A stretch of 60,378 bases of DNA from Tomitella cavernea (GTDB lineage Bacteria; Actinomycetota; Actinomycetes; Mycobacteriales; Mycobacteriaceae), in the NCBI RefSeq assembly GCF_016599145.1, contig NZ_JAENKO010000027.1:1-60378 (forward strand), written 5' to 3'. Below, piece by piece: positions 13,440-15,245 of this stretch. The position numbers and the translations under genes were made by a program. Position 1 is the stretch's first letter; the number at the start of each line of letters is the position of its first letter. The notes beneath the pieces are model-generated. The model was not told the DNA's origin. It worked only from the letters and a program-made list of their open reading frames with translations, and ran no database searches.

Positions 13440-13657
13440 AGGTCATCCTCCACGGCCGATAAACATGGCGCCGACGGTGCGCGCGCCGAGTAGCGGGTAG
13501 TACCGCAGCCGGGCGGTGGGCACCGGCGTGCCGTACATTCGCCGCTCAGCCTACGCGGTGCGTCGTAGATCCCCTAACGCGATCCCCCGGAAACCCCGAA
13601 GGGCCTCACCCCGGCCGCGACGGCTCGGGTGCACGCCCAGGTCAGGCGCGGCGCGCC

Positions 13658-14380
13658 CTACTCGACCTCGCTGACCCGGTTGGCGGCGGAGATGCACGCG
13701 TCGACGATGGACTCGGCGGTGGTCTCTCCGATGCCCATCGCCCACCGGCGCTGGTAGCCGCGCGAGCATTCGACGAACGTGGCGATCTTGGTGCCGGCCC
13801 GCTGCTGGTGGAACGCGTTGATCTCCAGCGGGTAGCCGGCCTCGTAGACGATCGCCGTCATCGCGGAGACGGTCCCGACGCCGGTGGCCTCCACCGTGTG
13901 GGTTTCGCCGCCGATGCGCACCCGCGCGGTGATGGTCCTGCGCGCGGAGCCGGTGCGTCGCGCGATGAAGTCGACCAGCTCGAGCGGTCCGTCCGCGGGG
14001 CGGAACGCGGCGAGGAACTCGTCCCAGCTCATGTGCGCCGCCGCGTCGCGCATCCCCTTGGGCAGGGGGCGGCCGAAGCGGGCGCAGAACGGGTCGGCCG
14101 GGCAGGTGTCGACGGTGCCGGCGTCGCGGCACTCCGTGCACGGCTGCGCCGCGGACCGGTCACGCAGGCCCGACGTGCGGCAGCCGCAGCGGGAGCGCAC
14201 GCGGCCCACCCCGGCGCGGGGAGTGGCCGGGTGCGGAAGGCTCCGCTTCTGTGTGAAGGCCCGGAACTCGCCCAGCGGACGCGAACTGCGGCCGGGGTCG
14301 CCGTCGGTGTGGGCCTGCCCGTACGCAGAAGAGCAGGCATCGAAGGCGGAAAGGACTTCGGTGACGTGTTGAGCGTTCAT
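13658..14380 (-). CDS. orphan LeuA-type allosteric (regulatory) domain protein
   Basis: This 240-residue protein resembles the C-terminal leucine-sensing domain of 2-isopropylmalate synthase from about residue 100 on. The recognisable blocks are GETHTVEATGVGTVSAMTAI, PLEINAFHQQRAGTKIATF and WAMGIGETTAESIVDA with a final A-A-N-R. The catalytic TIM barrel is absent. Residues 1-90 are Arg/Ser/Cys-rich and match nothing recognised; the conserved part seems to begin near FGRPLPKGM. An aaggaa ribosome site before the ATG supports the long start. It might sense branched-chain amino acids. An attenuator-like leader precedes it. Confidence 0.7.
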   Translation of the reverse strand: MNAQHVTEVLSAFDACSSAYGQAHTDGDPGRSSRPLGEFRAFTQKRSLPHPATPRAGVGRVRSRCGCRTSGLRDRSAAQPCTECRDAGTVDTCPADPFCARFGRPLPKGMRDAAAHMSWDEFLAAFRPADGPLELVDFIARRTGSARRTITARVRIGGETHTVEATGVGTVSAMTAIVYEAGYPLEINAFHQQRAGTKIATFVECSRGYQRRWAMGIGETTAESIVDACISAANRVSEVE

Positions 14381-14408
14381 GATGCGGTCTTCCTTGAAGA
14401 GAAAAGGT

Positions 14409-14453
14409 GACCGACGGTATAGCTCAACGACCCGCAGCGAGGGGTCGGTCGAA
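14409..14453 (-). promoter_or_regulatory. attenuator-like alternative hairpins in the leader of the LeuA-domain gene
   Basis: On the minus strand the leader peptide stop is followed by GACCGAC (14450-14444), which can pair with GTCGGTC (14415-14409); the latter is followed by ACCTTTTC, as in an intrinsic terminator. A competing hairpin CGACCC-ctcgctgc-GGGTCG lies between and overlaps the first arm. Mutually exclusive hairpins after a Leu/Val-containing leader peptide are the layout of classical attenuation. Confidence 0.45.
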
Positions 14454-14495
14454 TCACACCCCGCTACGGCGGTGAACTACGAGAAGTCGCTTCAT
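14454..14495 (-). CDS. candidate leader peptide MKRLLVVHRRSGV
   Basis: This 13-codon reading frame on the minus strand starts 115 nt upstream of the LeuA-domain gene. It contains consecutive Leu-Leu-Val-Val codons, ends in TGA and is followed at once by alternative hairpins. Leader peptides of this type control leuA and ilv operons through ribosome stalling. There is no strong ribosome site before its ATG, so translation is uncertain. Confidence 0.4.
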   Translation of the reverse strand: MKRLLVVHRRSGV

Positions 14496-14549
14496 GTCTC
14501 AACCGTACCGCCGCGAGGTGCGGCAGGGCAATGGGTGCGGGCGCCTTTC

Positions 14550-14613
14550 CGGCTCACGGGTCCGGCTCACGGGTCGGGCTCACGGGTCCGGCGGACGGGT
14601 CCGGCGGACGGGG
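14550..14613. repeat. 12-bp tandem repeat array
   Basis: The unit cggctcacgggt recurs about three times, then changes to ccggcggacgggt twice. It lies in the spacer between the divergent LeuA-domain gene and the membrane protein gene at 14667. Confidence 0.8.
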
Positions 14614-14666
14614 CGGCCGGGCGGTGTCCGCCATCACGGCGCGCGCCCGGCGCCGGACCTAGAATC

Positions 14667-15245
14667 ATGGCCGTGACTGCAGGTACGCGGGATGACGGGG
14701 CTGTGGATCGCGACGTGCGGCAGCCGGCTGGAGCGACGGGTGCAGCGGACGGCGTGGGTGCAGCGGACGGCCGGGAGACTGTGACGCTGCGGTTCCCCCG
14801 CTGGTCGCTGGCGTTCGTCGCGGCCGGCGTCGCGGCGACGATGGGGGCGGGCATCCTGGCGGCGGCCACCGCGTCGCGCCCGAGCGAGTTCACCGTGTGG
14901 GCGACCGCCTACCTGGTGCTCGTTCTCGGGGTCGTCCAGGCGGCGCTGGGGCTGGCCGCCGGCGTGCTGGCCGCGCGCCCCGTCCGCGCGGCGGTCGTAG
15001 CGTCGGCCTTCGTCCTGTTCAACGCGGGCAGCGCGCTGGTGATCACGGGGACCGGGCTCGACGGCGTGGTGGGCTGGAACGTCGCGCTGGTCGACGTGGG
15101 CGGCGTGGCGCTGATCCCGGCGATGGGGCTGTTCCTGTACCTGGTGCGCGGCGCTCGCAGCGGCGTCTGGCTGCATCTCTACCGCGTGGTGGTGGCCGTG
15201 ATCCTCATCAGTATGCCCATCGGGTTGATCCTGGCGCGGGTTTGA
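14667..15245 (+). CDS. hypothetical multi-pass membrane protein
   Basis: A 192-residue protein with an Asp/Gly/Ala-rich cytoplasmic N-terminus of about 45 residues followed by four or five hydrophobic helices (LAFVAAGVAATMGAGILAA, YLVLVLGVVQAALGLAAGVL, AAVVASAFVLFNAGSALVI, VALIPAMGLFLYLV, VVVAVILISMPIGLIL). No catalytic or transport motif was recognised. The ATG at 14667 gives the shortest reasonable N-terminus; the frame stays open upstream. The N-terminal part contains a small in-frame GAADG/GAADG duplication. Confidence 0.65.
   Translation: MAVTAGTRDDGAVDRDVRQPAGATGAADGVGAADGRETVTLRFPRWSLAFVAAGVAATMGAGILAAATASRPSEFTVWATAYLVLVLGVVQAALGLAAGVLAARPVRAAVVASAFVLFNAGSALVITGTGLDGVVGWNVALVDVGGVALIPAMGLFLYLVRGARSGVWLHLYRVVVAVILISMPIGLILARV

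Follow-up and report, generated by a model that had tools for sequence, protein, structure and literature searches.

The window, by which is meant the whole stretch of DNA analysed here, is 60,378 nucleotides of the Tomitella cavernea genome. On its minus strand there is a gene for a 240-amino acid protein with the regulatory domain of 2-isopropylmalate synthase, LeuA, and, between this gene and a candidate promoter, a 13-codon leader frame whose RNA has the potential to pair in several ways. The features that need to be considered are, in the order of transcription:

14526..14531, minus strand: -35 element TTGCCC, 18 nt before the -10 element
14502..14507, minus strand: -10 element TACGGT, 6 nt before the leader ATG
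14454..14495, minus strand: leader peptide frame MKRLLVVHRRSGV with its stop, 13 codons
14475..14480, minus strand: control codons GTA GTT (Val-Val)
14473..14480, minus strand: helix P1, 5′ arm GUAGUUCA
14459..14469, minus strand: helix P2, 5′ arm CCGUAGCGGGG, inside the leader frame
14444..14450, minus strand: pseudoknot P3, 5′ arm GACCGAC, in the P2 loop just past the leader stop
14432..14443, minus strand: helix P2, 3′ arm CCCUCGCUGCGG
14419..14426, minus strand: helix P1, 3′ arm UGAGCUAU
14409..14415, minus strand: pseudoknot P3, 3′ arm GUCGGUC, also the source of the P4 5′ arm
14386..14412, minus strand: hairpin P4 (least certain), GGUC/GACC and CCUU/AAGG, over the Shine-Dalgarno sequence AAGGAAG (14395-14389)
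13658..14380, minus strand: orphan LeuA regulatory-domain protein, 240 aa

The sole Pfam match to the 240 residues at E ≤ 1 is PF08502, LeuA_dimer (29.7 bits against a cut-off of 24.9, residues 132-236), and neither a barrel family nor any other Pfam family was matched across them at that threshold, which upholds the proposal in an earlier note on this DNA that a LeuA regulatory domain stands here without its catalytic barrel. A profile of 29 orphan relatives searched against the PDB finds M. tuberculosis LeuA (1sr9, 3fig) at about 1e-8 (best 1.1e-8). The structure model had the window protein and one Rhodococcus relative as input; confidence from residue 91 onward is a mean of 72-90 per block of ten, and in the extension that makes up the first ~90 residues it is low (mean 65). 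With this model the top Foldseek matches are eight LeuA chains, the best at 7.7e-11 (1sr9), with 155-164 alignment columns and TM-scores of 0.49-0.52 by query length. The regulatory domain of citramalate synthase is matched at 1.8e-5 to 3.3e-5, and the matches after that are double-stranded-RNA-binding proteins at 2e-4 and worse, with TM-scores below 0.2. The orphan LPRxLRxE..MSWxxF also aligns with the end of the LeuA linker, LPRRLQIEF..EMWDVF (row L192 left out of this alignment). This suggests that the orphan is the linker end plus regulatory domain of a LeuA without the barrel; profile and fold alike relate these parts of it to M. tuberculosis LeuA. P107, W213 and A228 are invariant in all 29 aligned orphans. 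Canonical LeuA has EHA in 22 of 23 rows at the presumed place of the allosteric leucine site of M. tuberculosis LeuA; the same stretch is HQ in 27 of the 29 orphans (HR in L010, RQ in L029), and because of this replacement leucine binding by the orphan protein cannot be assumed. The window protein has a Cys-rich stretch, CGC...CTEC (14129-14194, approximately residues 63-84), inside its long N-terminal extension. Such an extension is shared, among the 29, only by L003 and L004, and L021 has a short CGCAGAC.

Relatives of the orphan in close genomes were found by one protein search, and a profile search covered 401 genomes, all from that taxonomic family and drawn from a larger group. Matches at E ≤ 1e-12 occur in 393 of the 401, a figure that includes full-length LeuA; about 355, by hand count from the search table, reach E ≤ 1e-25. 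Among genomes in which the matched protein is identifiable as full-length LeuA, the best value is 3.6e-22 (G006, a 647-aa frame). Four of 31 genera (g8, g12, g14 and g17) have no match at E ≤ 1e-25. In a tree of 58 domains, rooted at its midpoint only and with the orphan rows L028 and L029 as long branches, all 29 orphans fall into a single group (100/99), the 23 rows of canonical LeuA into another (99/94), and the six rows of a second full-length type of LeuA, LeuA2, into a third (97/88). Descent of the orphans from within the LeuA2 group, suspected from the HQ motif, was rejected as each of the three sets lies on one side of a branch. The orphan family, judged by sequence, is real, conserved and widespread across many relatives of Rhodococcus. 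A comparison of the neighbours of 11 orphan loci, which reports components present in three or more, left nothing in common other than the orphan itself and one short recurrent translation, near the orphan in three of the 11 and judged spurious by eye; an operon context was rejected, and because no shared neighbour remains save that probably spurious frame, the orphan protein probably acts in trans. One of the six LeuA2 genes, in the same genome as the window (G000:C25:73900-77200, L045), has the HQ motif in its regulatory domain and its own Leu-run leader, MHAKRLLLLCRHGGA.

The leader frame at 14495-14454(-) reads ATG AAG CGA CTT CTC GTA GTT CAC CGC CGT AGC GGG GTG TGA, with two Leu codons (CTT CTC) ahead of two Val codons. 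Its conservation was followed through 124 orphan locus entries (L001-L029, L046-L075 and L096-L160), from which 105 unique segments remained after L012, L129 and L154 (no leader hit; covariance model R1, described below, misses their leaders), L149 (which starts inside its leader) and 15 repeats were left out; 102 of the 105 have a frame, L026, L140 and L159 having none within the limits used. An in-frame GUA is present in all 102, though these are sequences related by descent, representing 60 different peptides, and so are not independent counts. With frame and GUA both conserved in 102/102, the possibility of a chance frame was rejected. Val-Val is found in 92 and Leu-Val-Val in 78, as against Leu-Leu-Leu in one; 90 of the 92 have GUA as the first of the two Val codons, and the second is GUA in 49 and GUU in 43. 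Both are rare codons in the window, GTA being 1.0% and GTT 0.5% of the 192 Val codons in six window frames taken as genes. The short frame that had been proposed as a leader is thus present and kept, and of the mixed Leu/Val control codons assigned to it the valine part is constant while the leucine part is not, 11 of the 102 being without a Leu codon. One leader, that of L017 (at 1339), has the LVV motif twice, MKRILVVRRLVVQGRRGV.

The sequence ahead of the frame is conserved too. Among 79 orphan segments that begin with ATG or GTG, 66 have TANNNT 6-8 nt ahead of the leader start versus 1.8 in letter shuffles, and all of these 66 have TTG at a spacing of 16-19, versus 5.0. For leuA leaders the TANNNT count is 16 of 17 versus 0.4. 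A strict sigma-70 consensus scan reports no promoter in 13500-14700 because TTGCCC and TACGGT fit the consensus poorly. From the placing of these boxes, the orphan transcript probably starts at the leader ATG itself, upstream of 14454, and a start downstream of 14454 has no support in the sequence. The predicted absence of any 5′ untranslated nucleotides would make the leader similar to the leaderless uORFs reported, in passages of PMC4633059, for mycobacteria. Directly upstream of the promoter, at 14548-14612, there is a 13-bp tandem repeat of about 4.5 copies.

Helix counts were made on A2, an alignment of 33 of 52 diverse leaders from which 16 of genus g22 and L017, L029 and L132 were left out. 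P1, in which GUAGUUCA pairs with UGAGCUAC and whose 5′ arm contains the GUA, is paired in 78.6% of cells, and four of its pairs have changed in both partners. P2, the only helix that RNAalifold finds unaided, has 97.5% paired with two such changes, and P3, GGACCGAC with GUCGGUCC, has 94.2% paired, also with two. For the three jointly the value is 91.1%, versus 38-59% when the partners are slid and 88.3% after random redistribution of the 3′ letters, which in 500 rounds never gave so high a value. The eight pairs changed on both sides compare with 4.7 in shuffles, a number reached in 1 of 500, and the covariation score was reached in none of 500. The conservation of both peptide frame and pairing, on which the earlier note had made its idea depend, is accordingly found in relatives. 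A cruder pairing rule was applied to the unique leaders (L017, L028 and L029 have no stem by it); outside g22 it gives at least 6 of 7 P3 pairs in 78 of 79 segments versus 18.7 expected, and at least 6 of 7 P1 pairs in 68 of 79, the P1 count having no shuffle control. The P3 3′ arm can alternatively pair with the Shine-Dalgarno stretch GGAAGACC to form P4, for which 74.9% of cells are paired in relatives. P4 is the weakest helix and the least certain, as its two-sided pair changes do not exceed those of shuffles (288 of 500) and in covariation score it is outdone by one of the slid controls. The predicted fold of the window does form it, with CCUU on AAGG, at an energy z-score of -2.57; equally low energies occur in 4 of 200 shuffles. 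In the orphan leader, then, the codon run has UGAGCUAC as pairing partner and the Shine-Dalgarno sequence has GGUC..CCUU. No Rfam family matches the window or six leuA loci at the gathering score, and a loose threshold gives only two microRNA matches at chance level.

Codons and RNA can in part be told apart. The P1 core is broken in nine of the 33 A2 leaders, and GUA is still in place in eight of them, the ninth having GCA in its place, with GUA one codon further on. In genus g22 (L136-L160) GUA and P2 are kept and P1 is largely absent, 8 of 23 having 6 of 7 pairs and none having 7; at least 6 of 7 P3 pairs occur there in 21 of 23 versus 10.8 expected, an excess less clear than elsewhere. As GUA persists where P1 is broken or mostly missing, the Val codons look to have been kept as codons. 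Conservation of the peptide end for its own sake was rejected, for five unique leaders (L006, L018, L021, L050 and L116) stop early inside the P2 stem and retain the stem without RRSGV, from which it seems that this part is kept as RNA. The outer helix P1 may have been lost or replaced in g22, and because it is mostly missing there, although GUA is kept, a mechanism with P1 as a necessary part does not apply throughout. The g22 sequences cut both ways, against P1 as a general part of the switch and for the codon as signal.

The same genome has leuA with the leader MQRVLLLECRGGV (G000:C26) in addition to the LeuA2 gene mentioned above. Of 21 leuA-type leaders 20 have Leu-Leu-Leu and none has a GUA codon; P2 is 98.7% and P3 95.2% paired in them, and three pairs have changed in both partners, a number that 1 of 500 shuffles attains. 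Of 22 leuA loci, a nucleotide profile of 15 orphan leaders matches 17 at E ≤ 1e-3, the strongest at 3e-11, and four more at 0.004-0.5, one being unmatched. The covariance model R1 was built from orphan leaders only, and its matches were assigned by position and by comparison of the downstream gene. In 41 genomes it gives 53 hits, 20 before orphans, 31 before leuA-type genes, one before a LeuA-like gene that is only distantly related (26% identical over 541 aa) and one weak, partial and unexplained (G022:C100, E 0.036) with no such gene nearby. From the shared hairpin and pseudoknot, the shared promoter spacing and the cross-matching of profile and model, the two kinds of leader are paralogous by sequence. 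The leuA element is the LEU element that Seliverstov et al. described in 2005 upstream of leuA in Actinobacteria (PMC1262725), in a paper whose text does not mention the orphan genes. Common to both are a short leader peptide with a run of branched-chain codons, a pseudoknot over the leader, a Shine-Dalgarno sequence inside the pairing, the promoter spacing, and detection by one covariance model. The LEU element stands before leuA and has a Leu run, whereas the orphan element stands before a barrel-less LeuA_dimer gene and has Val-Val with the rare GUA, and in most sampled genera its codon run pairs with the segment between the hairpin and the pseudoknot arm. The orphan leader, on these comparisons, is a LEU-element paralogue with its control codons changed from Leu to Val. 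The claim of a new regulatory layout thus survives as far as the Val-codon leader before a LeuA fragment goes, and has to yield where the leader proves a paralogue of an element already described. Comparison among relatives demonstrates the leader frame, its Val codons, P2, P3 and the common descent with the leuA element.

What these features could do together can be put as follows. leuA would have been copied together with its RNA control element, the barrel lost, and the product would now be a free regulatory protein. Transcription would begin at the ATG of the 13-codon leader. With valyl-tRNA plentiful, the ribosome would reach the stop, the hairpin would re-form behind it, and GGUC/GACC would close the Shine-Dalgarno sequence. 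With valyl-tRNA scarce, the ribosome would wait on GUA-GUN, P1 and P2 would be held open, and GACCGAC would take GUCGGUC, freeing the Shine-Dalgarno sequence. Less certainly, the orphan would bind full-length LeuA by way of the parts homologous in both, linker and regulatory domain, and would restrain it, leaving 2-ketoisovalerate for valine (and pantothenate). 2-Ketoisovalerate is the direct precursor of valine and is consumed by LeuA; for that reason restraint of LeuA when valine is short is the simplest reading. The parts are not equally secure. Against the scheme, mutations of the leader codons of Streptomyces coelicolor leuA reportedly gave results at odds with classical attenuation (Craster 1999, as summarized in PMC1262725). 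That the leader senses the charging of Val tRNA is a fairly good prospect, and since the 3′ hairpin covers the Shine-Dalgarno sequence, control of the orphan by masking at translation, not by termination, is to a similar degree probable. A leuA-derived orphan regulator under translational control by a Val-codon leader is the best explanation as a whole, with about an even chance of being right. Most likely the orphan protein is made when valyl-tRNA is short and, we infer, acts on LeuA or its substrate; for action on LeuA itself the prospects are somewhat below even. The entire sequence of events, in which a leuA copy kept its RNA switch, exchanged its control codons from Leu to Val, lost the enzyme part and came to brake the parent enzyme so that precursor flows to valine, is a tentative and rather unlikely proposal. 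Should it be correct, a duplicated attenuator acquired a new signal amino acid through replacement of its control codons, with the RNA fold unchanged. Two paralogous elements in one genome, with the same pseudoknot and different control codons, constitute a natural experiment on the LEU element, whose working is disputed: a responding amino acid that changes with the codons would make translation of the leader the sensor, and one that does not would mean that the RNA is read by something else. The findings also point to a widespread family of regulatory proteins placed where the valine and leucine pathways of actinobacteria diverge, and no description of the family or of its leader was found in openly licensed PMC text.

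Almost as plausible as a partnership with LeuA, while still on the doubtful side, is that the orphan is a stand-alone amino-acid sensor with some other partner, such as acetohydroxyacid synthase, or a decaying remnant. The altered stretch at the presumed leucine site is in keeping with this, and no linked gene points to LeuA. Decay as such is made unlikely by the matches at E ≤ 1e-25 in about 355 of the 401 genomes (hand count) and by the three invariant residues.

Slightly less probable is that the RNA pseudoknot is a protein-binding site, or is set by general ribosome stress, with the leader codons incidental. A protein ligand was what the 2005 paper favoured for the LEU element (PMC1262725). 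A possible orthologue, MAB_3424c of Mycobacterium abscessus, is also relevant. In the parts of two papers that deal with it this gene is named leuA or 2-isopropylmalate synthase (PMC4974804, PMC10727445), while leuA in a passage of another is MAB_0337c (PMC11057210). A ribosome-protected uORF precedes MAB_3424c (entry in PMC4974804), and WhiB7 binding is listed upstream of it in a table that also has valS (PMC10727445). A table of the genes that change in double lysogens (PMC8191103) enters its M. chelonae counterpart as "hypothetical", with no M. tuberculosis gene listed, and gives it a value of 3.2 (column unit unchecked). As in the window, a uORF stands before a gene named leuA that, going by those excerpts, is not the leuA in use, and MAB_3424c may be an orthologue of the orphan, a candidacy based on published descriptions. 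Against irrelevance of the codons, the switch from Leu in leuA to Val in the orphan, with GUA without exception, would be hard to explain, as would the retention of GUA in eight of the nine leaders with no P1 core.

That the leader senses leucine, or all branched-chain amino acids, and not valine in particular seems unlikely, more so than the preceding alternative. It has on its side the Leu codons of 91 of the 102 leaders, the window's CTT CTC included, which make co-sensing of leucine and valine possible, and the leaders of genus g3, which has small genomes, 12 of 31 of them without a match at E ≤ 1e-24. In the other 19 (L231-L249; read by eye and in none of the leader counts) the leaders have diverged and are often ILKRV- or NILKRVPNPGGG-like, several having codons for Ile, Leu and Val; many seem to retain the pseudoknot arms, GGACTGAC and GTCGGTCC, together with a GUA. 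It counts for valine that 11 leaders do without a Leu codon and not one of the 102 does without GUA.

Classical transcription attenuation, with stalling in the leader selecting between an antiterminator and a terminator that ends in TTTT, is improbable, for all that the window has TTTT three bases past GTCGGTC (14405-14402) and that the leader of the Corynebacterium glutamicum ilvBNC operon, a branched-chain amino acid operon, does have a terminator (PMC11857589), because the T run is not conserved where the helix is (relatives have mostly TTCC, TCCC or CACC-like letters there), no terminator-like site is found on the minus strand in 13500-14700 (there is one on the plus strand, 14233-14246), and what is conserved downstream is the Shine-Dalgarno sequence and its complement. 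The mutually exclusive hairpins of the earlier note stand in the form of the 5′ stem and GACCGAC/GTCGGTC (14450-14444/14415-14409), which are able to pair across that stem; the TTTT as terminator tail was rejected, and with it attenuation by termination gives way to Shine-Dalgarno masking as the more likely control. In the predicted fold of the window, CCUU contains two of the four T and pairs with the AAGG of the Shine-Dalgarno sequence.
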